Source of the DNA: [Phialemoniopsis] sp. UDSM-2020
Taxonomy: Eukaryota; Ascomycota; Sordariomycetes; Thyridiales; Thyridiaceae
Length of the DNA: 64,000 bases
Direction of reading: 5' to 3'
Assembly (NCBI GenBank): GCA_018873225.1
Contig: JAEILZ010000003.1
Span: 1,860,001 to 1,924,000, forward strand
Both the position numbers and the translations under genes were made by a program. Shown one piece after another: positions 3,905 to 51,670 of this stretch. How positions within the stretch are numbered: the first letter of the stretch is position 1; each line of letters begins with the position of its first letter. The notes below the pieces were generated by a model. The model worked only from the letters and a program-made list of their open reading frames with translations, was not told the origin of the DNA and made no database searches.

Positions 3905-5081
3905 ATGAGGTCAGGTGTTTTCGCCGTTCTGGCGGCCGTAGCCGTCAGGCAGTCAGCTGCACACGCTATCTTCCAAGAGCTTTGGGTCGATGGCGTGGAC
4001 ATGATACGTTTTCCCGCGATGCATCCTTACTGTTGTGGCTTTGGGCTAACTTACTTAGCACGGTGGTCAATGCGGAAGGATCCCGTACTCGAACAATCCC
4101 ATCACAGATGTTACCTCCAAGGACATCGTATGCAACTCCGGACTCTCGTCGGCCACTGGAAAGTGCGCTGTCAAGGCCGGCTCAACGTTGACTGTCGAGA
4201 TGCACCAAGTAAGCTTCCCATCTCTACATTCCCTTCCACTTGACATTGAGTTACACTGTCAGAGACTAATATCAATACACTACAGCACGCGGACCGCGGC
4301 TGCACCGAGGAAGCCATTGGCGGCAAGCACTACGGCCCCGTGACCGTCTACCTGTCCAAGGTGGCCGACTCGTCCACCGCCGACCCCTCGGCCGGCGGCT
4401 GGTTCAAGATCTTCGAGGACGGCTGGGCCAAGGTGGCCGGGAGCTCAAGCGGCGATGACGACTACTGGGGCACCAAGGACCTCAACACCTGCTGCGGCCG
4501 CATGAGCGTCAAGATCCCCACTGACATCGCCGACGGCGACTACTTCCTGCGCGCCGAGGCCCTCGCCCTGCACACGGCCGTGTCCCCGGGCGGAGCCCAG
4601 TTCTACATGACGTGCTTCCAGCTCACGGTCTCGGGCGGCTCCGGCAGCGCATCCCCGGCGACGGTCAAGTTCCCCGGCGCCTACAGCGCGAGCGACCCGG
4701 GCATTCTGATCGACATCCACTCCGCCGTCAGCAGCTACAAGGTCCCCGGCCCGGCTGTGTATTCCGGTGGCACCACCAAGAAAGCCGGGTCTGCTTGCAC
4801 CGGCTGCGAGAGTTCGTGCAAGCCAGGCTCCGGACCGTCGGGTACCGTCACTCCCGTTCAGCCGACCCCCGGAGGCGGTGACAATGGTGGCGGCGGCAAC
4901 GGTTGCTCCGTTGGCAAGTACCAGCAGTGCGGCGGAACGGGTTACACCGGCTGCACGACATGTGCCGTAAGTCAACACTCAATGACTGATCTAGTGGAAG
5001 ATTTTCTAACTGATGATTGTGCTTTAGTCTGGATCAACATGCAGTGCTGTCTCACCACCGTACTACTATCAGTGCGTGTAG
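3905..5081 (+). CDS. AA9 lytic polysaccharide monooxygenase with C-terminal CBM1
   Basis: A secreted copper enzyme that oxidatively cleaves cellulose or related glucans. Four exons (3905-4003, 4059-4208, 4286-4966, 5028-5081) give 327 residues. A signal peptide of about 19 residues is followed by the obligatory N-terminal histidine (HAIFQELWVDG). The second copper histidine is in GGKHYGPVTVYLSKV (residue 98). The outer-sphere LHTA and the Gln/axial Tyr motif AQFYMTCFQL are all present. A Ser/Pro/Gly-rich linker leads to a family 1 cellulose-binding module (QQCGGTGYTGC...STC...YYYQCV) over roughly residues 290-327, split by the last intron. Introns 2 and 3 are canonical. Intron 1 fits perfectly at its 3' end but begins ATACGT instead of GTACGT (see separate entry). 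Catalytic residues look intact. Confidence 0.9.
4004..4058 (+). other. Intron 1 of the AA9 gene with a non-GT donor
   Basis: The 55-nt intron has a good branch site (GCTAAC) and TTAG acceptor. Removing it joins residue 33 (VDGVDM) to HGGQCGRIP in frame. Its first six bases are ATACGT, one base from the usual GTACGT. The only in-frame GT alternative is GTGGAC at 3995, which would delete the three residues VDM. Another GT at 4008 would frameshift. Confidence 0.6.
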
Positions 5082-5551
5082 AGTTACACACAAGCATCGG
5101 GGATCGGATTGCCCCTACGATTCGAGGCTCTGAGTGTATCACTGCCTAGGCCTGTGAAATGCCCGGGGCTTCTTCCTTAGGGAAAGATAGTCGTATCACA
5201 ACGAAGTGGCCTATGCTAGCTTATGATGATCAAAATACTAATGCATGGATGAATCTGAATCGTACTCGCTAGTTAAATGCAAGTGGGTGTGTAATTGAAC
5301 GACGCTACTGTTCGTAGTCTCCTTGATTCTTGATGCCCGGCTTTGGCCATAGCCGAGACCAAGCCCGCTACATCATGAAAACAATGTGGGGTAGCTTCAG
5401 AAGCATCTCGGCCTCGACAAGCGAACCCCAGGACGGACAGCGATGCTATTCATGCTCTTCCATATACCAAAGATGACGATTCGCTTGTGCCCTGGCTCCT
5501 TACGATAGTTCGAACTCGAAGTTTGGGTGATGCTCTCGTGTCTCTCACACA
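5082..5551. other. Gene-free stretch between the LPMO and the tannase pseudogene
   Basis: Holds the LPMO 3' region and whatever remains of the esterase promoter and N-terminus. The signal peptide and first part of a normal tannase cannot be recognised here in any frame. Confidence 0.5.
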
Positions 5552-7245
5552 ATGGCGATCACGATTCACCAGGCGCTGGGACAGGCATTTGGGGCAGACT
5601 CACAAATTCGAATTCTCCATGTGCAGGCATTCTCTGCGGGGGAAAGCCTCGTCCCTTCCTCCGAACAAGCAAACGAGGAGAGCAAAAAGGTCTCTCGCGG
5701 GGTCACGCTGGTGAAGCTCTTCCTGCGCACCACAGGGCCAGCTCCAGAATTCCCATCTCCAAATGCAGGCACCGATGTCGGCATGGAGATATGGCTCCCA
5801 GAGCCAACAGCATGGAATCATCGAGTTCGCTGCCAGATCCAGGGTGCCTTCATGGGAGACGTACGAGTGACTTCTTCGCGTCACTTCTCGCTCCCGATCT
5901 GCACTGATCTCTGGAGCGGCGAGATAGCCTCCGAACTGGGCTACGTAGTCGCCACGACAGACGGCGGCCATGCTTCGGCCAACATGGAAGACTTCAGCTA
6001 CCTCATGAACGAAGATGGGTCCATCAACTCTGAAGGCTGGAGGAATGTTGCCTATGAGGCCACGCATCTTCTGGGCATGAAGACCAAAGAGCTTGCGAAG
6101 GCTTACTACGGGGATCCGGCATCCTCCTCATACCTCTACGGGTGCTCGAGTGGTGGGCGCGCCGCCTATCACTCAGCCAGAAATACCCGGAGGACTTTGA
6201 CGGGCTTCTAATCGGTGCCCCGTCACTGAACCAGTCCCTCATCTTTCCCTCGCTGCTTCATCCGATCATCGTGGTCCAGAACGATCTTGGCGGAAAGGAC
6301 TTCACAGAAGATCAACTTGAGGAGGTTTCAAAGCGAGCGATTGCAGCCGGGGACACCGTGGTGACTGGGAGTCACGACGATTACATTACAGACTGGGAGT
6401 CAAACTCATATGACCCGACAAAGGATCCATCTGTCCTCGTCGTGTCGGAGGGTGGCTCTTGTACGGAACCTTGGGCTCTAACTCTGGCACAGGCAGAAGC
6501 CATCAACAAGATCTGGTATGGGCCGACACTCGACGGAACAGCCCCAGACCCGAAGGAGGACAACGGTACTCGTTGCTCTCGGCGCAGCAACCACCTCTTC
6601 TGGGGCAAGATACGGGGCACCCGAATCGACTACACGATAGTGGCGCGGGGTGCGGCCACATCACTCCTTGCGCTTGCGCACAAGGACTCGAGTCTCGCTT
6701 CGCCTGGTTGGAAGCACCCCACTGGCAACGGTCGTGACGCCTGGAGAACCTGGACTTACAAGCAGTTCGCGGACGCCATGCTCAAGTGCCAAGCCATGAA
6801 CGACAGCTTTGCCAACATGGACGCCGATGAACCTGCGCAGATGACGCACATACAATAGCGCGGTGTCAAAGTCCTCACTTACCACGGCCTCGCTGACACC
6901 GTGACGAACCCACAACTCTCCATCAACTTCTACCGCAGGTCGGCAGATCATACGGGCGGCATACAGAAGACTCAGGACTTCCACCGCCTGTTTCTCATAC
7001 CTGGCATGGGTCATTGCTTCAGGGCCCGAGGGTGTGTCGGGACAGTGAACCCTCCGATTCCTACCCTGGAAGAGTTGTTTGCCGCCCTTGCAGCTTGGAC
7101 AGAACATGGTGTGGCGCCTGATCGCTTGATCGCCCATAGCACGGATGGTCAAACCTCGAGGCCAATTGTTCCCTATGGTGGCAAGCCTAGTTGGCCAAAG
7201 TATATCGGGGGAGACGTAAACGTCGCATCTAGCTTTGAGGCTTGA
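5552..7245 (+). pseudogene. Tannase/feruloyl esterase family, frameshifted and nonsense-interrupted
   Basis: Intact members are secreted serine esterases of about 520-560 residues that release phenolic acids from tannin or plant cell wall. The first segment (5552 to about 6170) contains EIWLPEP, GYVVATTDGGHAS and the nucleophile motif YLYGCSSGGRAAYHSA. Homology then continues as QKYPEDFDGLLIGAPS one frame over, equivalent to a one-base deletion near 6170. The second segment runs to an in-frame TAG at 6856-6858. After it, the same frame carries the catalytic Asp region (VLTYHGLADT) and the His/Cys motif (LIPGMGHCF), ending at 7245. No signal peptide is visible upstream. All catalytic motifs survive, so inactivation looks recent. 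An intron cannot explain either lesion because family similarity is continuous. A sequencing error could explain one lesion, but less easily both. Confidence 0.85.
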
Positions 7246-17182: not shown

Positions 17183-19263
17183 TTACATATGCTCGGCGTG
17201 TTCCTCAGTTGACTTCTCCAGAATGGCCCTGTCCATCTTGGCTCTCTCCTCGGCGGTAGCGTTGCTCAGATCAACGACGACCTTGTCGCCGAAGATAGCA
17301 TTGATCTCCTCAAGTGACATGCGGGCAGTCTAATGAATGAGGATCAGTCTCACGGTCTTTCGAAGAATTTGGTTGCCGGCTAATGATACGTACCTCAGGG
17401 ACAAAGAAGTAAGTCAGGACAAATGCCACGAACGAGCAGCAGACGAATACGAGATAAAACTTCCATCTGCAGGAGCATTGTAATCAGTAACCCAATACCA
17501 ACAGAGCCCAACTAGATCAGTGTAGACTCACCCAATAGTCTGCATAGCGGTAGCAGCGGGCGTGAGGAAGGCGATCGACGACACATAGTAGACGAACAAG
17601 CCCAGAGCCATACCCTTGGCACGGTACATAGTCGGGAAGATCTCGGCGCAGTAGACGAAGGCAGTGTTGTCGATAGCCAATCCGTATCTGATGCCAGTCA
17701 GTCATGCAAAGGGTAACCAGGAATCTGAAGCACAACTGAACACGTACATGGTGACAAAGAGGAAGAGGAAGAACACAGCAGCGGCATTACCGCCCTTATT
17801 ATCCGAGCCAGCGAACTTCGAGACCAGAGCCGTCTCGCACGTCATGACGATTGTAGTACCAAGGAAGCCGATGACTTTTCAGCACAGACACTAGAGTCAG
17901 CCATGTACAACTTCGAGCTTGTCTGAACCAGACAATGCCACTTACAAAAGAGTGGTCTGCGGCCCACTTTGTCCATGATAAATGCTGCGATGATGTTGAC
18001 CGAGGCACCGACAACAACGTAAATAGCGTACATAAGCAGCGGCATGCTTCCAGTCATGCCGAGACCTTGGTATAGAAGCACACCGTAGTCTAAAATATAA
18101 GGTCAATGGAATCATTCTGACACCTTAAGCGATGGTTGAGCTTACTGTTGATGACAAGAGGCCCACAAGATTGGCCACCTAGCAACACTCCGCAGCCTAG
18201 GAGGATTCTTCGCCGGAGAGAAGGCTTCTTGAACATATACCACATCGACAGGTCCTGTTGGCGATCATATTCGATCTGCTTCTTCATTTGGTAGAACTCT
18301 TCACGTGCTTGCATCTGTGTATCGTCGTTCGGGTCGTGGTGGAGACGCTCGGTGATAGCCCAGGCCTCATCGGCACGGTCTTTCCAAAGCACTGGAACAA
18401 ACAGGAATTAGTTCCCCATTCGTTGAATCCATCAATAATTCAATATACTTACACCAACGTGGAGACTCGGGAATCCACGGAGAGCCGACTAGGAGGACCA
18501 AAGGGAAGAGGCACGAGATCGCCAACGGGAACCTCCATTGGAAGGTCTCGTTCGTTGCAAAATATGTACCGTATCCCACCCTAGTCACCAAAAGAATTAG
18601 CAAAGCGCTTCAGGGAAAAGCTAATGATTATGTGCATACCAGCTCGACAAGAAATAGCCAATGACGAGACCGACAGCGTTCTGCCCAGCCAACAGACCTC
18701 GGCGGTGCGGAGGAGCAACCTCGGAAAGGTAGATCGGCGTGATGGTGATGCATGAACCGACGCCGATACCCTGCAACAGGCGCACAACTACGAGCATTGG
18801 GATGTTTGCGCTGCCTGTGACAAGAGCCTAGACAAATCGACAATCAGCAACCATCCAGTGAGCACCGGTTTGAATATGGAACCAACTTACACCCCCGATT
18901 AGACTAAGAGCACCCGCATACATGATGGTGTACTTTCGACCGATCCAGTCAGGGAGCCAGGCGATGGAGAGGGCGCCAAAGGCAGCGCCGGCGGAGAAGA
19001 GCGCATTGATGGCGCCTAGAATGGAGGCCGTGTAGTCGGAGCCGGGACCCTCCGGAGCCAGGTTGAAGTATTTGTAAAAGCCCGGCTGGCCAATCGAGGT
19101 ACTGAAGACGGAGAAGGCATAACCATAGGTTAAGCTGCTCAGTGCTACGAAGAGCACGATCTGGGTAGCGAGGCGCGCGTGTCAGTTGACCTGCTGGAGA
19201 CTTGTGGAGCCTCGGACGGATGAGACCACTTACAGAAAGATTATATCGCGATGTTTTAACCAT
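17183..19263 (-). CDS. MFS sugar porter (SP family), ten exons
   Basis: A plasma-membrane sugar transporter of 502 residues. The exons are 19263-19234, 19160-18891, 18827-18640, 18580-18453, 18391-18146, 18089-17946, 17874-17748, 17687-17532, 17466-17394 and 17329-17183; all junctions are in frame with good donors and acceptors. Family motifs: AFGALSIAWLPDWIGRKYT in the first half, RLLQGIGVG, PPHRRGLLAG, WRFPLAISCLFPL with PWIPESPRWL, DKVGRRPLF, AEIFPTMYRAKGMALG and the C-terminal FVPETARMSLEEINAIFGD. The substrate cannot be assigned. Its 3' end faces away from the RiPP locus. It shares the strand of the precursor gene, 1.2 kb downstream of that gene's stop, but as a sugar uptake type it is not an obvious export partner. 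Confidence 0.9.
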
Positions 19264-20440: not shown

Positions 20441-21084
20441 TCAGGCCTTGTCCTCAGCCCTCTTTCCCCAGGCTCCGTTGCGAAGCGCGGCATCCTCGGA
20501 TACCTCCCTCCCCCAAGCACCATTTCGGAGCGCGGCGTCTTCAGCCCTCTTTCTGCCCCAGGCGCCATTACGAAGGGCCGCATCTTCAGAGACCTCCCTT
20601 CCCCAAGCACCGTTACGGAGAGCCGCGTCTTCAGACCTCTTGCCCCACGCACCATTTCGAAGTGCCGCATCCTGAGATGCTTCCTCTCTGCCCCAGGCCC
20701 CATTGCGGAGCGCAGCATCCTCGGCTCTCTTTCCCCAGGCACCGTTACGAAGCGCGGCGTCCTCTGAGACTTCCCTGCCCCAGGCACCGTTTCGCAGGGC
20801 AGCGTCCTCAGCCCGCTTTCCCCAAGCGCCGTTGCGGAGTGCTGCATCCTCGGACACCTCCCTGCCCCAAGCACCATTGCGCAAAGCAGCATCTTCGGAC
20901 AAACCCTAACATCCTCCAGGTTAGCTTATTGATATGGCTAGGTCCAAGTGCTCGAGTCTTAGGTAGACTTGTGTTTGTGACTACCTCGAATCGGATCTAG
21001 TAGGTCAAGACTTACGGCAGTCGGTGCAGCCATACCGGTGGTGGCCAGGGCAATGGCGATAAAAGTAATAAACGAGGTCTTCAT
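20441..21084 (-). CDS. Secreted repeat precursor peptide, putative RiPP (dikaritin/KEP-type)
   Basis: Two exons (21084-21016, 20905-20441; donor GTAAGT, acceptor TTAG) encode 177 residues. Exon 1 is a signal peptide (MKTSFITFIAIALATTGMAA). Exon 2 is almost entirely ten copies of DAALRNGAWG, each preceded by SE, AE or SQ. Separators alternate strictly: GRE(V/EA)S after copies 1, 3, 5, 7 and 9, and GKR or GRKR, a dibasic Kex2 site, after copies 2, 4, 6, 8 and 10; a short AEDKA tail ends the protein. Kex2 digestion would therefore yield five dimeric peptides. The copies are identical in the decapeptide but differ at many synonymous codon positions, so the peptide itself is under selection. Secretion signal, Kex2 sites, perfect repeats and a divergent UstYa oxidase gene match fungal RiPP precursors. 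The core is not one I recognise. A secreted signalling peptide is the alternative. Confidence 0.88.
20453..20898 (-). repeat. Ten in-frame tandem repeats of the core decapeptide
   Basis: Units of about 42-48 nt encode DAALRNGAWG plus separator. The higher-order period is two units (GRE separator, then GKR separator). DNA identity between units is clearly lower than protein identity because of silent changes. Confidence 0.9.
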
Positions 21085-22044
21085 TGTGAAAAGAACGGTT
21101 GATATTTCAGGGTGAGAGTCCAAATACAACAATTGTTTTTATAAGAGACTTATTCAGATGATAAGGAAATGCGAGGTGAGACTGCTGGCATCCCAGCCCT
21201 TATTATAGTATTCTATCATGTCCCAAGTCACTGCCCAAAACCCCCTTAGCGGCTGACGAGCAGCCTTCGATGTTAGGCCAAACTGCCGTTCGTAGCCTGA
21301 ACTTGACACACAAGGCCTTCGTATTCAGTTTTTCAGCGATCTACAACTGTGTCACATTCCTCTTCAAGCTGCCTCAGCGTGGATCGTCGCCTCGACAAGC
21401 CTATCAAACATCGACAGCTCCCAGCATTGTGTCTCGTTGTCAAGAGGGCAGTACATACACACTGAGCTACCACCGCAACCATCGTCCAACTCGATGTATT
21501 CTTAAGTGCCTGTTCTGCAATTCTCCACTACTTAGGGTCTTCGCCTGAGTCATCAAAATAGACTGATTGGCTGACACATAGAGTCACGATATCTCTTGTT
21601 TATCCCATCCGATGGCCCGCTGCACGCAACCCTCTCGGGATCTGGGTTACATATTCTACCTACGCTTTTTGGTAGGTGAAAAAGACTGTGTGTCCCACCC
21701 CACTCGTGATGCTGGCCATCGAAGGTTCGATGATGTCGTAAAGAGATCTCAAGTGTCGTGTGACATACCTCTGTTGCTGCTTCAGGAAGGTAAGATCGCA
21801 GAGATACTCAAGCCGCGATTCGCGACATGCACAAAAGACGACGCCAAGCTGATTGTATGCATTGTCTCGTCATCGCGGAGCACACTGCCATGTATGGCTT
21901 GGTCTTCTGAAATAGTATACTTGCATTTGTTCATTCACACCCAGTATCATAGCATTCCCTCTTCGATGACGGCGGAAGTCTTTCGAGTATTCCTCCAAAG
22001 TTCTTGTCCTATTTTTGTTGCACTACCATATTTCGAGTATCATA
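21085..22044. promoter_or_regulatory. Divergent promoter region between RiPP precursor and UstYa gene
   Basis: 960 bp separate the two ATGs, which point away from each other, so both genes could be co-controlled from here. A TATA element for the precursor lies at 21136-21143. No protein-coding similarity was found inside. Confidence 0.55.
21136..21143 (-). promoter_or_regulatory. TATA box of the RiPP precursor gene
   Basis: Reads TATAAAAA on the minus strand, 52-59 nt upstream of the ATG at 21084. Confidence 0.5.
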
Positions 22045-23134
22045 ATGGCGACTGATAGTCTAAGTGAGCCGCTCATTGAGAAGGAGAACGCAGAGTCTGT
22101 TAGAAAAAAATCAACGAGCAAGCCATTCAAAATTCTCTTCATCTTCCAAGTCATTACACTCTGCCTCCTACCAGTACTGTACATTCTAGGCTTCAAGGCA
22201 GGCTCCCGACAGCTGCCCAAGTTACCGACTCATCGTAAGTTCTTTCCCTCACTATATCACGAAGATGTGCAGAAACGTGGTATTGACTAGAAAATCAAGC
22301 CATAACCAAAGATGCGTTCAAGCTCAACCTCCAATCTCTGGACGACGCCTTCGACGTGAAAGACCCTGAGAATATGAGGTTCAAGGGGCTGCCGAGGCCT
22401 GAACTCGACGAAGCCTGGGAGGGCTTGCTGAAGCGTATGACAGTTTGTGACAGGCGAAAGGATCCCCTGAGGACTAACATGAATTATTTATCCAGACATG
22501 AACATACGTGTCCACCCTGACGAGGCACGCCAGTCCTCCAATTTCACTTCCGTCGAGCTCAATGATGGCACGGGCGACTTGCACGCTATGCCCACTGTCT
22601 TTCATGGACTGCACTGCTTAGTAAACCCCACCCATTATCCATGCTCTGTCCGGGATACTGAAGCCTAATTTGATTTTATCAGAAAACGATCCGCGAATAC
22701 TTCTTCCCCGAAGCCTACCCCGAAAGCTGGGAGCAGTTCAAGCCCCCATTCCCAGGTGGTATCAGTCGGCATATGGATCACTGCATAGAAAAGTATGTTT
22801 CCACACCACTTGCTGCGCCCAACCTCAATACTGACCTATAATGTAGTCTACGTCAAGCCCTGATGTGCCAGGGAGACATGGCATTGTACACATACGAGTG
22901 GTTGCCAGATCAGGAGGAGCCGAATGTAGTCACTGGGATGCAACACGTCTGTGCGGACTTCGGCAGCATACTAGAATGGTCCGAGAAGCGAAGCTATTCG
23001 ATCTACGATGGCCTATTGCAGAATCCGTATCGAGGTGAGACATGGTCCCCTTGAGCAGATCGCAGAGTCAATGGACTGACGCGTGGATGACAGACTACAC
23101 ATGGGACCCCCATGCCTGGGACCATGACCACTAA
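22045..23134 (+). CDS. UstYa-family (DUF3328) oxidase
   Basis: UstYa proteins are membrane-anchored, probably copper-dependent oxidases. They install C-O or C-C macrocyclic links in fungal RiPPs such as ustiloxins, asperipin, phomopsins and victorin. Six exons (22045-22234, 22291-22434, 22496-22620, 22683-22792, 22847-23034, 23094-23134) give 265 residues. A short cytosolic N-terminus precedes one membrane helix (about residues 30-50, ILFIFQVITLCLLPVLYIL). The lumenal domain carries both diagnostic HxxHC motifs, HGLHC (148-152) and HMDHC (183-187). Between them lies the family segment TIREYFFPEAYPE, and after them SLRQALMCQGDMALYTYEW. The gene ends in a His/Asp-rich tail. It is divergent from the repeat precursor. 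Only one UstYa copy is in the window. Confidence 0.92.
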
Positions 23135-23876
23135 ATTTCAAGCAGCGGCTAGCAACAGCAAGACGAAGAGAAGCAGCATCTGTGACATCGCGCTTGTCAG
23201 GCCACAAGGGACCAGGCGGCTTGGAGGATACAAAACATGGGCAATATTGATCAAAGCTAGAAAGTGGAGATCTACGCACCCCTGCTTGAGATCTGTTCAA
23301 TTCCCGACAGCCTGCCCCTGGGTACATACTTGCGAAGGTTTTATGGTCTGTAATCACCTACGTGTTGACTGAATAAGGAGGTTAATTATCATCAATTGTG
23401 GATTAATAGAAGACATTTTGCCCACATCGTAAGCACTAGAAAGCTGTCCAAAAGCGCCAGAAGATCCGGTAGCCTGGGTAGCTATGAAGTTGAATGAACG
23501 AATCCACCATAGATGCGTCGGTCTGGCACCCACGTGTCAACGCTAGTCCTTGATCCTCCATCCACCTCTCCATCAATCACCCTCATTTGAGCTGAGAATC
23601 GAGACTTCACATGGGTTGACCACGTGGTTTTGATAAGATCTCCACAGCTTCACGGCTATGATAGATCTGACAAGCTTTCCGAGAACCCCCTCTGCCCTCT
23701 CCCCGAAGTGCCAAAAGTGGTTCCCATAGATGTTGAAGTCGTTCACATCCACCGGTTGTAAAAGAGGAGCACAACGCTATGCGCCCGAGTATAAAAGCCA
23801 GGCCAGATTGGCTATGTTCTCCGTAGAATCCTAGTAGTTCAATTTTCAAGTGTGAGTCGAAACAATCGTTCATAAC
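23135..23876. other. Spacer between UstYa and SurE-like genes
   Basis: Contains the SurE-like promoter with a TATA element at 23790. Nothing else recognised. Confidence 0.5.
23790..23797 (+). promoter_or_regulatory. TATA box of the SurE-like gene
   Basis: TATAAAAG, 80 nt upstream of the ATG at 23877. Confidence 0.55.
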
Positions 23877-24842
23877 ATGAAGTCTTTCCTTACGGCTTCG
23901 CTCCTGGTCCAGGCCGCCCTGGGCCTGAACATCCTGCTCAACAACGACGATGGCTTCGGCGTCTCCAACATCCGCGAGTTCTACCGCCTACTCGTCGCCT
24001 CCGGCCACAACGTCTACATGGTCGCCCCAGCCGACCCCCAGTCCGGCCAGGGCGGCCGCATAGACTTCGCCACCTCGCCGGTGCTCGACAAGCCGACGCA
24101 GTACGACCTGATCCCGTCCGGCGCGCCATCCCTGGGCAAAGACCCGAACGACGACCACATCTGGTACTACCGCGGCACGCCGGCCGCCTGCACCATGGTC
24201 GCCCTCGACTACGTGCTGCCCAAGTTCGCCAACTTTTCCGTGCCGGACCTGTTCGTCTCGGGCCCCAACTTTGGCAACAACGTCGGCACGTTCGCCTTCA
24301 CGGGCTCCGGCACCATCGGCGCCACCTACACGGCCATCCAGCGCAACGTACCCGGCATTGCTTTCTCGGCCGCCAACCTCAAGGACTTTAGCTACAAGAA
24401 CATCACGACCGACGGCACGGACCCGGCGACCCTGGCCGCGGTGCAGGCCGTCCGCTTCATCGACACGGTCGCGCGCAAGGCCACGCCGGGCCAGCGCATC
24501 CTGCCGCTGGGCTACGGTATCAACGTTAACATCCCGGCCCTCGGCGACGCGTGCAAGCAGCCGCCCTTTGTGCAGTCGCGGTTCTCGGGCGGCTCCGGCA
24601 TGCCCAAGATGGTGTACATCGAGACCTCAGGCCTGATGCAGTTTGCCGGAGGCGACATCCTGGGCTACATCAGCGAGGGCGCGAACCAGTGCTTCAACGG
24701 CGACTGCGCGCTGCCCGGCGAGAGCGTCGTCGTCAAGGGCTGCTCGACTGCCGTGACTATCTTCACGGTCGACTACGACGCGCCTGCCAACGACAAGACC
24801 GCCGCAGTGCAGAAGCTGTTTACGTCTGAGTGCGGTCGCTGA
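23877..24842 (+). CDS. Secreted SurE-like acid phosphatase/nucleotidase
   Basis: Single exon, 321 residues. A signal peptide (MKSFLTASLLVQAALG) is followed at once by the SurE fold: LNILLNNDDGFGVSNIREFYR with the metal-binding Asp pair, VYMVAPADPQSGQGG with the conserved serine, and FVSGPNFGNNVGTFAFTGSGTIGAT with the conserved asparagine. SurE proteins are metal-dependent phosphatases acting on nucleoside monophosphates. Fungi have secreted versions of unknown biological substrate. Codon use is very GC-rich compared with the adjacent UstYa gene. Position beside the RiPP pair may be coincidental; no known dikaritin pathway uses SurE, so I do not count it as a cluster member. Confidence 0.88.
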   Translation: MKSFLTASLLVQAALGLNILLNNDDGFGVSNIREFYRLLVASGHNVYMVAPADPQSGQGGRIDFATSPVLDKPTQYDLIPSGAPSLGKDPNDDHIWYYRGTPAACTMVALDYVLPKFANFSVPDLFVSGPNFGNNVGTFAFTGSGTIGATYTAIQRNVPGIAFSAANLKDFSYKNITTDGTDPATLAAVQAVRFIDTVARKATPGQRILPLGYGINVNIPALGDACKQPPFVQSRFSGGSGMPKMVYIETSGLMQFAGGDILGYISEGANQCFNGDCALPGESVVVKGCSTAVTIFTVDYDAPANDKTAAVQKLFTSECGR

Positions 24843-25148: not shown

Positions 25149-26603
25149 TCATTGCATGCAATCGTAATTCGTGCGCACTTTGTTCAGCAGCGACTCGCTG
25201 TCGGACGCCTCGACCCCGAGCCGGCGCATGAACTCGGCGAACTCGGCGTCGAGCGGCGCGGCGCCGTCGTCGCAGTCGTAGCCCCCGGCTCGGCTCAGCA
25301 GGTACTTAACCACGTTGACGAAGCGCGCCTCGTGCTCCGAGGTCGCCGTCTCGGCGAGGGTACAGCACACATTCACCCAGGCCAGGATAAGGTCTGCGTC
25401 GAGCGTACCCTCGAGCACGCGGAACTCGATGGTGCGGGGCCCCGTCCGCGCGCGGTCGTCCTCCTCGCCGAGCGCGCTGAAGTTGAAGCCGAGGCGGCGG
25501 TACTGCCGCTCCCGGCCCGACAGCAGCTTGCCGAGCTCGACGGTCGAGGTCGTGAGCCAGATGGCCTTGAGCGCGTCGTGCTGGTCGGCGTCCTCGACGC
25601 CGAGGCGCCGCCAGGCCGCGGCGAGGTACGACTCGAACTCGTCGCTCTGGTTGGTGAGGAGGTGCTGCCGGAAGTCCTCGCCCTTAGCGAGGCTCAGGGC
25701 CAGGCGGCTGTGCTTGCGCAGCTCGGCGCCCCAGGTGTAGATGTTGCGGAAGTTGGGCGAGCGCGGGTCGCGGATCTTGCGCAGGACGGGCTCGGCGAGC
25801 CAGAGCAGCGTCGCGAGGCGCTTGAAGGTGAGCAGGGTGAACGGCAGGCCGTCGTTGCGGCCGACGTGGACGTGCACGTCGCACGTGTAGTTGACGGTGG
25901 CGCGGTGCGGGTAGCGCACGCTGTGCACGACGTCGCGCACTGCCTGGGGCACGGCCGGGTCCTTCCACCACAGCTTCGGGGAGCACAGCTCGAGCGGGAC
26001 CCAGAGCAGGTCGGCGCAGCGCAGGTCGACCTCGACGGGCTCGGCCGAGTTTGCCTTTTTCACGATCCAGTGCGTCTGCCAGAACTCGCGCTCCTGCCGC
26101 TTCTCGTCCTGGATCTTGTGGATGGTGATGGCGCGCTTCTTGCCGTGCACGCGGATACTCTCGGCGATATCGCTGTATGCGTCACGGTGCAGCTGCGCGA
26201 TGGCCTGCTGGTCACCGCCGACGGCGGCGCCGCTGGTGGTGGTGGCGTCGGAGGACCGGTGGCGCGGGACGAGGAACTTGAACTCGAGGCCGGCGCAGAT
26301 GTCGTCGGCCGTGTCCACGACGGCGGCGCCGAAAGATGCGGGGCGCTTAGCCTCCTTGGGGACGGGGCCTGTCATCATGCGGCCTGCATTGGTGGGCGGC
26401 ACGGCGGCGGCGGTAGCAAGTGCAGCGGTCATCGGCATGTGCAGGGACAGGGTCAGGGACGAGGGCGGCGGCGGCGGCTGCTTGAGCATTGGCATTGGCT
26501 GCATGTGCCCTGTTGCTGCTGCTGCTGCTGGGGTCTGATGGAGGTGCTGCTGTTGCGTAACCGAAGCGACTATATACTCGGCTTTCCTCGACAGCTTTGT
26601 CAT
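25149..26603 (-). CDS. Putative amidoligase (glutamine-synthetase/GCS-like fold)
   Basis: Single exon, 484 residues from ATG at 26603. The first 100 residues are low-complexity (QQQ, poly-Ala, poly-Pro). The catalytic region starts at CAGLEFKFLVPRH, where the family has a G-x-E-x-E-F strand. It continues with LLWVPLELCSPKLW, the Cys/His motif TCDVHVHVGR, FKRLATLLWLAEPVL, and TIEFRVLEGTLDADLILAWV near the C-terminus. These are the hallmarks of the putative amidoligase family, predicted to join carboxylates to amines using ATP. Fungi carry many paralogues of unknown substrate. It ends convergently with the SurE-like gene. I do not see why it would be part of the RiPP pathway, though amide formation on a peptide is chemically conceivable. 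The upstream ATG choice is uncertain because of the low-complexity N-terminus. Confidence 0.8.
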   Translation of the reverse strand: MTKLSRKAEYIVASVTQQQHLHQTPAAAAATGHMQPMPMLKQPPPPPSSLTLSLHMPMTAALATAAAVPPTNAGRMMTGPVPKEAKRPASFGAAVVDTADDICAGLEFKFLVPRHRSSDATTTSGAAVGGDQQAIAQLHRDAYSDIAESIRVHGKKRAITIHKIQDEKRQEREFWQTHWIVKKANSAEPVEVDLRCADLLWVPLELCSPKLWWKDPAVPQAVRDVVHSVRYPHRATVNYTCDVHVHVGRNDGLPFTLLTFKRLATLLWLAEPVLRKIRDPRSPNFRNIYTWGAELRKHSRLALSLAKGEDFRQHLLTNQSDEFESYLAAAWRRLGVEDADQHDALKAIWLTTSTVELGKLLSGRERQYRRLGFNFSALGEEDDRARTGPRTIEFRVLEGTLDADLILAWVNVCCTLAETATSEHEARFVNVVKYLLSRAGGYDCDDGAAPLDAEFAEFMRRLGVEASDSESLLNKVRTNYDCMQ

Positions 26604-29600
26604 CTTGATACGTGTGCTGAAACGGAAGGGATATCTGGACTGTGATATACGGCTCTGAGTCGGAGATATCAGTCTGGTCTTGACTTATAAGCCCGGTGCA
26701 TGACGGTTTGTGGGTCGGTTCCGGAAAGACCGTACCGCGGTAGTGTGGCTCTTGGCCCTCGTGTCGTTGGTGTGGGGATTTGGCACGGATGCGGGACGGC
26801 GATTCTTGGGGTAGTATATGACTAGGAGGAGGAGGGTGAAAGAGATGGAGAACAATGGGTGAGTATGTGCGTATGTGTGAGTGGTAGTATAGAGAAGCAG
26901 TACTTGCAGCAAAAGCAGCAGGCGGGCATGGGGCAGCTGGAAAAGAAAGAAGCCGGACGACCACGACGCAGACTCGCAGGAAGACGAGCCTCGACTTTTT
27001 GAAATAAACGAGAAAATACTCACGCTTTGTCTGCAGGTTTGCAGACAGGCAGGCGACGAGAAGGGCAAGGCAGTGAGTTGGATGACAGGCCGGGGCGCAT
27101 TGGCCCTCCCGAGCCGACCGATATTAGCAGCAGCGAGCGGCCATGGAGGCCAGCATAACGGGCGGGAGGGCGGACGGATGTTGGTTGGCGGTGGAGCTGC
27201 GGGGGACTAGAGGAACGAACGGCTGTTGGGTTGGTCGTCTGGAGTGTGTGTGGAGGAGAGGAGAGGAGAGGAGAGGAGGCGATTCGGCGTTGGGCAATCG
27301 ACACACCACACAGTCTCTCCCGTAGTAGACAAGTTCTACATACATAAGCCAGTGACCAAGAGGGTCGGAGGGCGCTCTTCTCTGGCCATCCAATGTCTGT
27401 CACTCTGGTGTGTGTCTGCCCGCCGCACCATCACCCGGCCACGTCAACCAGCGAGCTAGCAAGCAGGCAAGCAAACAGGGTGAGCAGCTAAGCTAAGCTG
27501 ACCTGACCTGACCTGGCTTCCTCTCTGCAGAGCAGAGGGCCGTTGGCCGATGACTGTATGCCCTCGTCTTGCTTTGATAGTCACTCTGGCTGTGGATGAT
27601 GATGTGTGTAGCTTGGGAGCTGCAGCGACACGCAATGCCAAAATGCTGGTACCCCCACGCTTGGCGGAAACCGGAAATCGTCGGGTGGTACCGAACCCTT
27701 CTTGAAAAGAACCGTTGGCAAACCAGACCCAAGAAAAAGGACCTGAGGAAATTCCTCGATTTCGTCAATGCTCTCGGACGGGACCCAGAATCCCAGGTGA
27801 GCAGCGATCGAGTCGGTCAGTGCGTGTGTTTCCAAAACGACAGGTCATCGTCGTCAGGTGCTCCGGCATGGAGGAGGGCAAAGCACATCTGTTGGTTCAT
27901 CAATGTGTCCCCAAAAGAGGGGTTTGAAATGATGGATGAAGAGGAGGAGGAGTAGCAGTAGCCGCAGGAGAAGGAGAGAGGTGAGGGGAAAAAGACGCCC
28001 CAAAATCCCAATCGCATCAAATGAGAACATCAGGAATAGCTCTCTCCTCACTCCCTCGCCCATTCTTTGTCATTGCGCAAAAGATAGGGAACATCCCAAA
28101 CGGGAATGGTCGTCGGCTCTGGAAACGTCCAAACGCCGGCTGCTGAACCAAGGTTCCATCGCTATTTTTGAGGCAATTTTAGCAAGCCAAGCTATGTATC
28201 AGGATAACGAATTCGACGTTTGCACGCCCGCAGTGACGTGCGCACGACAGAGGTACACAAGATGCCTCCTGCTACACGTCTGATCGCCCCCCCTCGTCCC
28301 TCGTCCTTCCATTGATCAGCATCCGATCCAGCACAACATTGAGTCCCCCGTCCTGTAGTGGTTGTCGTCCGACATGTCTCGAGGACCACGTGTTCTGCCG
28401 TGCCTCGCACGAAGTTCGACGATGCATCCTGGGCGGACATGGACCTCGCAATCCCTGGTCGTCTCGTCTGGCGATGGTGGATTCGTGCCTCACTCCATGT
28501 CACTCCCTCACCTGTCGTCATCAGCGATCACATGTCATGCCCATCCTAGGCCAGCCCAACGACTGACCATCTCTATCTGGTCGTCTCTTCTCATACCCTC
28601 CTCATACGCCCGACAGCCACCGGTTTCCCTGTCGTTCCCTACTTCCCACTAATGCCGTGCCATGGCTTATGCCGCCATCTCATCTATCACAAATGACATA
28701 CCATATGACAGCCGACACCCGCACCTCCTCGACGATAGGCTCTGTGCCCGGGCGCTACCCAGGCGGCTCCCGGTGCGGAAGGCCAGACCAGCCCTTTGCG
28801 CCAAGTGGTGTTGCGATGCTTGCGAATTATCGCCAAAGCGGCCCGAAAGGTCTGGCCACCCTCAAGTGCCACCATCTCTCCAATTGACCACTTCCATCTG
28901 GCACGATATTGGAGTAAGCAACCATCATTCAAACCGGTAGTGGTCTTTGTGACACCGTGATATAATCCGGGGTCATCGCATCCGCGCGTGGAAGCCCTTC
29001 TAGGATCCCAGATCTCGATTCATGCGTGCTGCGTCACATCATCCAAGCGCGCAATATCAAGACCGAACAGCAACTGATAAAAGTTCATCTGTACTTTCTT
29101 CCTCAATAATCCCATCGACATTCATAGCGTTCCATTCCTACTACCCTGCGAAACATCGAAAGGTTGCCGTGGATATCCGCTTTCCGTCCCAACCCTGGAA
29201 TCCTGGTATGGAGCATTGCGCAACCTTGGTCGAGCATCTACGGTTGTTGCAGATCTGCGACATGTTGATTTGTCCGAGAGCGTCGACTTTTCCGGGTCAC
29301 TCGAAAAAATCGAGAATTCGATTCCGAGTCCCGAACAAGACCACCATCTCTGTGTGCCATTGTGACGGTCCATGATTGGTACTGTTGGGTGCCTAGTTCG
29401 TGATATCACACGTCTGACAATTCCGCAGACAATTCCCTGCTTTTCTTTTTCTCGATCTGGGGACAAATTCTGCATGACAGACTTGCGGCTGACACACGCC
29501 TCGTCGTCTGACGAAGATCTAAAGAAGGCCTGGCTTGCACAATGTCGGAAGCTGTCATCGAACGGGAGTGGCTGACTTGTGTCTCTGCCACCCGACAGGC

Positions 29601-49725: not shown

Positions 49726-51670
49726 ATGTGGTTACCCACGGAGCTCGCTGCCCTCTGTTGCCTTCTCCAAATTGCGCACGGCGGCAGCATCATAGATAGA
49801 AGCCAACCACCTGCTGTGGTCGTGCCCGAGGCCACCCTTGAGTCGGATGCTCAACGACAGTGAGTTGCTCTTTCATTGTTATCCTGTCCTGACCTCTACG
49901 GTGATAACCGGTCATCTCGTCGCCCACGATACTACCCTTGTTTGAGTAGTGACTCATTCTGTACTGCAGATTACCAGTTCAACAATTCTTATTACAAGTC
50001 GAGTCACCGAGGCGTCCAGGCCGGTGGCTGCGGAAGAGACAGACAACAGCAAGGGCATATGTCTGTCCGGATGGAGTCTGCCCGGTGTGCCAGGTAGCGA
50101 CAGTGTTCACCCTCGTCGGCGATCAGCTTTATGGGGACAAGAAGCTCATAGCGGCCACCACCGGCAAGGAGCAAGAGCCACTCCTCGCTTGCGCCGCCGA
50201 GGCCACCATCAACCATGGGTTCTCAATAGCCCAGGGCTTCCTCGAGTGGAAGAATACAGAAGTCACAAATCCTGACACAAGATTCTGCTTGTCGAAGTCA
50301 AATTCAATACTGGCCCTGTTCAATGCAACGGCCATGCCGCCTGATTGCACGTTGGTCAAGCTGAACTATGTTCCAAGTTGGTGATGCCCCTGATAATCAT
50401 ACGCTTGTACCTCTGCTGACATTCCAAAGTGGACCAGTGTTCTATGCCAGGCACATCACCGATAAATATAGTAATAGAAACAGGAAGCGGAGGTGGCAGT
50501 GTGCAAGCAGGTGGGCAGTCGGGTGGAAACGCACCTCCGACGGTGCAGTGGTCAAGTAGTGGTGCCAATCAAGCGACGTGGTCCGGCTCACCGAATACTG
50601 GAGCAGCACAGCCGGGGTCCGGATGCAAAAGTTGTGCTCAAGGAGCCTCTTGGGGTAGCTCTGGCGGCTCAACGAGCGGCGGTTCAAGTGGGTGGCAACC
50701 AGGCGCTTCCTCTGGCTCCGGATGGGGTGCACCAGGTGGCTCAGGATCGTTTCCAGGCACCCCAGGTACGCCTGGGAGTCCTGGCACGCCTGGCACTCCA
50801 GGAACTCCAGGAACTCCAGGAACGCAGGGCACGCCGGGTGCCACCGGCCAGCAAGGGGCTCAGGGACCGCCTGGCCCTGCCGGTGCACCAGGCGCAGCTG
50901 CATCGCCTGTGCCGGGGCCTCCGGGGCCAGCAGGTGCATCTGGCAAGGACGGAAAGGATGGCCAAGACGGCCAGGATGGGACTAATGGAGCTGCTGGGAA
51001 AGACGGCGCGACCGGCGCCAATGGGGCGAACGGGGTCAATGGAGCCAACGGCGTAAACGGCGTGAACGGAGTCAATGGAGTGAATGGAGTTAACGGCGTG
51101 AATGGGTCCAACGGTGCGGATGGTGCGCAAGGCCCAGCCGGTGCACAGGGACCTGCCGGGCCCGCAGGAGCAGCAGGTGCTGCCGGCGCAACGGGAGCCA
51201 CGGGAGCCACTGGAGCAACCGGGCCGGCTGGTCCACAAGGCTCGGCCGGCCCTCAAGGTCCAGTCGGACCACAGGGTGCGCCCGGAAACGGGTCCCAGGT
51301 CATCGTCAACGGCACCGCTGCTGGATTTACCACCGCTTACGGCTACCTAGGCTGCTACGTCGCAGCGTCTGGAGGAGAGTACGGTCTGAGCCCCCCGACA
51401 GCGCAGGAGGTCGTCACCGTCTCGGTCGACGAGTGTGCAAATTTCTGCTCGGCCTCACCAGGTGGGCGGGCGCGTTACTTCTCGCTTGGCACCGACGCGG
51501 ACGGCAATTCCATGTGCACCTGCGGCAACAACCTGACGGGCTACGACTACGCCCAGATCGGCAGGCCTTTCGACTGCAACCGCCCTTGCAACTTCACGGC
51601 TCATGCCGATGTGTATTGCGGAGGAGATTTTGGAACGGTGCCGCTCGTCAACATGTTTGGGGCTATATAG
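49726..51670 (+). CDS. Secreted collagen-repeat protein with C-terminal WSC domain
   Basis: Three exons (49726-49859, 49970-50376, 50430-51670) give about 593 residues. Exon 1 encodes a signal peptide (MWLPTELAALCCLLQIAHG). A globular region with six cysteines follows, then a Gly/Ser-rich stretch (about 190-285). Residues about 290-467 are a collagen-like domain of some 57 Gly-X-Y triplets, broken once by ASPVP. The triplets change from GTP to GPP/GPA, charged GKD/GQD, a GVN run and finally GAT/GPQ. The C-terminus (about 475-590) is WSC-like: YGYLGCYVA, DECANFCSA, CTCGNNLTGY, DCNRPCNFTA, YCGGDFG. The organisation recalls fungal collagen-like coat or adhesion proteins such as the Metarhizium MCL1 type. 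The first two exon joins are inferred from frame and splice sites; the exon 2 donor (GTTGGT) is weak. Confidence 0.8.
50756..51291 (+). repeat. Collagen-type Gly-X-Y repeat tract
   Basis: About 57 triplets in two blocks, with internal near-identical 9-bp repeats encoding GVN and GAT units, a likely site of length polymorphism. Confidence 0.85.

Follow-up and report, generated by a model that had tools for sequence, protein, structure and literature searches.

The locus between positions 20441 and 23134 of the window (the whole 64,000-nucleotide stretch of [Phialemoniopsis] sp. UDSM-2020 DNA analysed here) is, with a probability of about 80%, a two-gene RiPP-type locus, in which a secreted repeat precursor and a UstYa/DUF3328 protein would make a modified peptide. 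An earlier note on this DNA had outlined the same locus, and its coordinates were exact; the divergent arrangement that it described was also found, with the precursor gene on the minus strand and the UstYa gene on the plus strand. This reading is based on the gene structure, on ten identical cores under strong selection, on the UstYa match and conserved motifs of the second protein, and on a head-to-head pairing that recurs at 11 of the 18 UstYa places of the same genome. It also draws on the cyclochlorotine hydroxylase CctR, described as a copper enzyme with a binuclear site that is anchored in the membrane and works through these motifs (PMC12435403).

Precursor gene and its repeated cores

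The precursor gene (21084–20441, minus strand) was modelled with two exons encoding 177 aa. In the spliced model, a 69-nt first exon (21016–21084) encodes a hydrophobic putative signal peptide, MKTSFITFIAIALATTGMAAPTA, and a second exon (20441–20905) carries the ten repeats and the stop codon. The 110-nt intron between them (20906–21015, GTAAGT...TTAG) had the top score among nine splice combinations keeping the repeats in frame. The signal peptide, recognised by inspection of the spliced N-terminus as expected for a Kex2-processed repeat protein (KEP), is followed by GLSE and then by ten exact copies of DAALRNGAWG (20465–20893, minus strand), found by tandem-repeat detection and by translation. 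The spliced translation thus bore out the ten perfect copies in a presumably secreted precursor that had been proposed from the letters. Trp is the sole aromatic residue of the core, and Tyr is absent. A signal-peptide first exon separate from the repeats was modelled at six further precursor loci of the same genome.

Position checks on the minus strand placed dibasic KR sites after copies 2 (20813–20818), 4 (20726–20731), 6 (20636–20641) and 10 (20459–20464), and an RKR site after copy 8 (20546–20554). After copies 1, 3, 5, 7, and 9 there is only one Arg, within REVSE or, in one case, REEASQ. Tandem Repeats Finder gave scores of 450–454 to periods of 87–90 bp (two cores) and 256 to the 45-bp period (one core). 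Repeats split by dibasic sites, as in KEPs, are therefore seen for five two-core units and not for ten single cores. Of the Kex2-bounded repeats described in the earlier note, the five dibasic sites stood, whereas every second boundary turned out to be a single Arg. Since the dibasic sites occur only at alternate copies, Kex2 alone would yield five two-core peptides, not ten cores. Judged from its translation, the precursor appears to be a KEP in which the sites alternate in an unusual way.

At the DNA level, the ten cores had a mean identity of 0.791 (range 0.70–0.90), and at least 20 base changes among the copies were all synonymous, an outcome with a probability of 1.8e-12 under neutrality. 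Reshuffling of synonymous codons gave an identity of 0.784, with 7.4% of 2000 shuffles as high as the observed value. Because cores identical in protein have nearly randomised synonymous codons, selection holds every copy; the copies are either old or codon-scrambled, and each is kept by selection. The same shuffle test was applied to four other precursors, of which three behaved like the window: L012 (0.836 observed vs. 0.835 shuffled), L015 (0.819 vs. 0.814), and L016 (0.800 vs. 0.799). The cores of L018 were slightly more alike than the shuffles (0.836 vs. 0.824, 3.5% as high). At all five loci, the identical cores look as if selection acted on each copy, or as if DNA repeats were avoided.

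No precursor homolog was found at E ≤ 0.01 among the 7,997 sequences scored in a whole-precursor protein search, nor at E ≤ 10 among 335 in a search with residues 1–60. A weak match (33% identity, E 0.04) was detected elsewhere in the same genome. When the DNA was searched for NGAWG coding sequences with a basic start, six matches were obtained, at this locus only, against three with the reversed pattern as control; four of the ten copies present here escaped this narrow pattern. The core string was absent from the literature main texts searched, and the supplementary tables of PMC7329392 or PMC6339444 might contain it. The core had been called unrecognised, and within these protein searches and main texts it was so.

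UstYa/DUF3328 protein and related systems

The UstYa/DUF3328 gene (22045–23134, plus strand) was modelled from its translation, Pfam match, homologs, and spliced alignment. It has six exons (22045–22234, 22300–22434, 22496–22620, 22683–22792, 22847–23034, and 23094–23134) separated by five introns of 54–65 nt, and encodes 262 aa. The spliced-alignment script reproduced these exons with a profile that contained this protein, hence the agreement is not independent. The family assignment made earlier was supported by Pfam PF11807 (137 bits vs. a cut-off of 25, residues 30–235). Hydropathy and a position check likewise recovered the membrane helix and the two HxxHC motifs named in the earlier note. 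The predicted helix spans about residues 29–49 (22129–22191), with the hydropathy maximum at residues 31–49. The motifs are HGLHC (22603–22617) and HMDHC (22770–22784), putative copper ligands by analogy with CctR. In an alignment of the window protein with homologs P0001–P0009, the first HxxHC was present in ten of ten sequences and the second in nine, P0007 being gapped. A low-confidence structure model of P0001 (mean pLDDT 48.3) would place a helix at residues 25–51 and both motifs inside helices. By these sequence features, the gene product belongs to the UstYa/DUF3328 family and would span the membrane with a single helix.

The homology search suggested in the earlier note, which gave nothing for the precursor in the proteins searched, yielded ten homologs of the UstYa protein at E ≤ 0.001, four of them from a source without organism names. 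The best was from Cephalotrichum gorgonifer (Microascales; 73% identity, 262 aa, 100% coverage), and others were named Thozetella, Xylariaceae, Xylariales, and Colletotrichum. In a tree that also included the 24 UstYa models from the rest of the genome and excluded P0010 (19% query coverage), the window protein and nine homologs formed one 100/100 clade, with 60–80% domain identity to the window protein. The closest paralog in its own genome was the tandem gene of L015 (36% identity, branch 85/88), followed by one with 29%. The precursor beside this paralog reads ...NNAAGWGRKR, resembling ...RNGAWGRKR of the window; the likeness of the two cores is only suggestive. Core–enzyme co-evolution is not claimed, as 6.7% of 300 shuffles reached the L015/window core likeness score and a Mantel test over the 11 places gave rho 0.08 (p 0.32).

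According to the text of PMC7329392, DUF3328 proteins are indispensable for cyclising the cores of ustiloxin, asperipin-2a, and phomopsin, all from repeat precursors, with Tyr as the ring residue of these products. Family members also hydroxylate, halogenate, and isomerise (PMC12435403), and serve non-ribosomal peptide and polyketide pathways (PMC12435403; PMC12048977). CctR shares with the window protein the family, the N-terminal membrane helix, and the HxxHC(x)nHxxHC motif, but acts on a non-ribosomal peptide. It is described as a dimer anchored by one helix, with the catalytic part proposed to lie in the organelle lumen; each monomer binds two copper ions, the HxxHC residues are required, and a C–H bond is hydroxylated using O2 (PMC12435403).

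As a type, the locus is already known, since 1,758 of 7,878 surveyed Kex2-type precursors have a DUF3328 gene among their 15 nearest genes and Trp occurs in 20.5% of the repeats of these precursors (PMC7329392). In that survey of fungi, DUF3328 genes are most frequent directly next to these precursors. The KEPs that have a DUF3328 neighbour (Umemura 2020, PMC7329392) likewise show a signal peptide, repeated cores, dibasic sites, and an adjacent DUF3328 gene; in the window, by contrast, the core was not found in searches and the dibasic sites occur at every second copy only. By the newer, enzyme-based definition of dikaritins (PMC12048977), the locus falls among them, since its repeat precursor lies next to the gene of a DUF3328 protein that has two HxxHC motifs. 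The older five-gene definition (Ding et al., as given in PMC12048977) includes a tyrosinase and several DUF3328 genes, which the locus lacks, and also a methyltransferase and a transporter or peptidase. With the pathways of ustiloxin, phomopsin, and asperipin-2a it shares a UstYa-family enzyme, two HxxHC motifs, and a repeated secreted precursor, but differs in its Tyr-free core, its single UstYa gene, and the lack of tyrosinase or S41 peptidase matches nearby. Plant BURP-domain copper cyclases, some of which use Trp, offer a works-like analogy, being copper enzymes that make side-chain links in ribosomal peptides. Their planar histidines are similar (PMC12435403), but the domain is different.

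Precursor–UstYa pairs in the same genome

The genome (44.2 Mb, 11 contigs) contained 34 exon-level UstYa matches, which were grouped into 18 places with 25 gene models, the window included; the outer exons of the models are rough, and two models rest on matches slightly under the Pfam cut-off. Repeat ORFs were sought in the window and, at each of the 17 other places, in a surrounding stretch of 9.9 kb. Under the stricter rule, nine places were positive: the window, L012 (repeat EERQILPYKITTFKR), L013 (ALPQVYGAHQLK), L015 (SPDILYNNAAGWGRKR), L016 (VEPAYVWASPGKR), L017 (VRPFYDGHQLAFKE), L018 (ADYIYPIP), L019 (TDADNIWLWKTKR), and L024, a low-complexity ORF with His-His and Lys. A looser rule, applied to L014 and L020–L031 only, added L014 and L021. 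Overall, a repeat-precursor-like ORF was present near 11 of the 18 places, eight of them clear (window counted) and three weaker (L014, L021, and L024), and no repeat ORF was seen in the stretches scanned at L020, L022, L023, L025, L026, L027, and L028. Tyr was absent from the cores at three of the 11 (window, L019, and L024). Gene models with a signal peptide were obtained for nine of these 11 places, the window among them; the L021 ORF also starts with one, which the script passed over because it required two copies of one string.

At all 11 places, a UstYa gene stood head-to-head with the repeat ORF, with gaps of 0.85–1.58 kb at ten and 2.7 kb at L024; the pairs were entered by hand and their ends are rough. 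With random side and strand, the chance of this orientation is one in four per pair, but loci that are related do not count as independent cases. At L015, a second UstYa gene lies in tandem after the precursor, slightly nearer than the head-to-head one.

Three random 9.9-kb stretches served as a small control. Under the stricter rule, they gave three self-similar ORFs (L029), one (L030), and none (L031), of 186–1286 aa, so self-similarity alone is not specific. No short secreted dibasic repeat ORF was seen by eye in these stretches or in the rest of the window. The only window sequences beyond the locus to pass the stricter rule were a collagen-like ORF (50420–51670, plus strand; 416 aa, several tandem repeat periods, no dibasic sites) and two frames opposite it. 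Kex2-type precursors average about 5.3 per strain according to PMC7329392; eleven precursor-like ORFs, or eight clear ones, in about 0.2 Mb next to UstYa genes are far above background.

At L015 (2877–7605), three UstYa-family models surround one precursor with five SPDILYNNAAGWGRKR copies; one of the models has the unusual motifs HVVHC/HTSHC and a match just under the Pfam cut-off. At L016 (2219–9900), four UstYa-family models occupy about 5.6 kb beside a precursor with eight VEPAYVWASPGKR copies, whose ORF reaches the end of the stretch examined, so more copies are possible. At L018 (2018–4966), a precursor with eight ADYIYPIP-type cores adjoins a UstYa gene; its core resembles, without matching, the EDYXI motif described for phomopsin-type precursors (PMC6339444).

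The two genes of the window are separated by a 960-bp divergent region (21085–22044), a possible shared promoter, and their joint expression from it is plausible. In a comparison of ten divergent regions, those of all 11 places but L024, no shared 7-, 8-, or 9-mer stood clearly above 60 shuffles.

Proposed pathway and alternative readings

In the proposed pathway, the precursor would enter the secretory pathway, and Kex2 would cut after KR/RKR to give five peptides in which a linker with a single Arg joins two cores. The basic residues would then be trimmed by a Kex1-type carboxypeptidase to leave ...NGAWG ends. The membrane-anchored UstYa protein, with its copper site in the organelle lumen, would oxidise each core, most likely at Trp, the likeliest target as the only aromatic residue of the core, with a ring centred on Trp as a possible outcome. 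Later cleavage at the single-Arg site may yield peptides of one core, and the product would be exported. Computed [M+H]+ values are 1030.5065 for DAALRNGAWG, 1230.5862 for AEDAALRNGAWG, 1474.6921 for EVSEDAALRNGAWG, and 2842.3615 for the two-core 27-mer. The pathway drawn in the earlier note survived as a Kex2-type repeat precursor beside a UstYa/DUF3328 gene, and was amended in that the Kex2 sites occur only at every second copy.

Several observations count against the two-gene RiPP reading. No homologous precursor turned up among the proteins searched, though UstYa homologs exist in other fungi; Tyr is missing from the core, and a dibasic site is missing from every second core boundary. Over the 11 places, similar enzymes do not go with similar cores, the tandem UstYa gene of L015 is slightly nearer to its precursor than the head-to-head one, and the random control is small.

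Oxidative cross-linking is a step that we infer, because the core is Tyr-free and DUF3328 enzymes also hydroxylate and halogenate. It is possible, if less probable, that the UstYa protein hydroxylates the core, or oxidises it in some other way, but forms no ring, which would compete with the ring step only. CctR as a hydroxylase, the halogenating and isomerising members of its family (PMC12435403), and the absence of the residue of the known rings point in this direction; the indispensable role of DUF3328 proteins in cyclising ustiloxin, asperipin-2a, and phomopsin cores argues for a ring (PMC7329392).

An unlikely alternative is that the locus releases linear unmodified peptides, signal- or pheromone-like, and that the UstYa protein acts on something else. 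To our knowledge, DAALRNGAWG is unlike a Sordariomycete pheromone. Precursors are common without such an enzyme, as 6,120 of the 7,878 surveyed had no DUF3328 gene among their 15 nearest (PMC7329392). The head-to-head pairing at 11 of the 18 UstYa places speaks against unmodified peptides, as do the pheromone-type precursors, which the text of the same survey describes as having no DUF3328 neighbours, with three exceptions.

Improbable as well is that the two genes are part of a larger cluster with their neighbours. The Pfam scan, which covered 21 of the 57 ORFs in the window that reach 170 aa, found beyond the UstYa gene a SurE-family ORF (23856–24842) and an Amidoligase_2-like ORF (25149–26684, minus strand; 35.7 bits, cut-off 22), and a sugar-transporter ORF lies at 18831–19181. 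Among at least two amidoligase and three SurE matches of the genome, however, the SurE of the window is the only one with a UstYa place within 50 kb; the amidoligase count is a lower bound, as the search omitted the weak match of the window itself. Genome-wide, none of 21 exon-level tyrosinase matches is on the contig of the window, the single S41 peptidase match is on a different contig, and the next UstYa matches on the window's contig are over 370 kb off. None of the 28 Methyltransf_23 matches, 28 of 105 candidates having been scored, lay near the window, where a methyltransferase may yet be present. Farther off in the window (4250–6855, plus strand), an AA9-family ORF with a CBM_1 match is followed by tannase/feruloyl esterase matches.

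That the repeat protein has a structural or surface role, working uncut or as large fragments, is very improbable: half of the boundaries have no dibasic site, but the five dibasic sites are at regular two-core spacing and the UstYa gene stands head-to-head.

Within the two-gene RiPP reading, a more specific and doubtful proposal concerns the product. The UstYa protein of the window would belong to a lineage common to several fungal orders and would act on a core without Tyr, either closing a ring centred on Trp or linking one core to another. Since Kex2 would leave two cores on a single-Arg linker, one peptide would carry two Trp-Gly ends that a copper enzyme could join or modify as a pair. 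If true, such a linkage would differ from the rings that ustiloxins, asperipin-2a, and phomopsins form at Tyr.

Should the product exist, its core, with Trp in place of Tyr as the only aromatic residue, would serve as a test of whether the UstYa copper enzymes of ribosomal peptide pathways form rings at Tyr alone. The several pairs in one genome are natural pairs for enzyme–core specificity tests. Their head-to-head arrangement suggests a simple rule for finding unannotated precursors, testable in other fungi.
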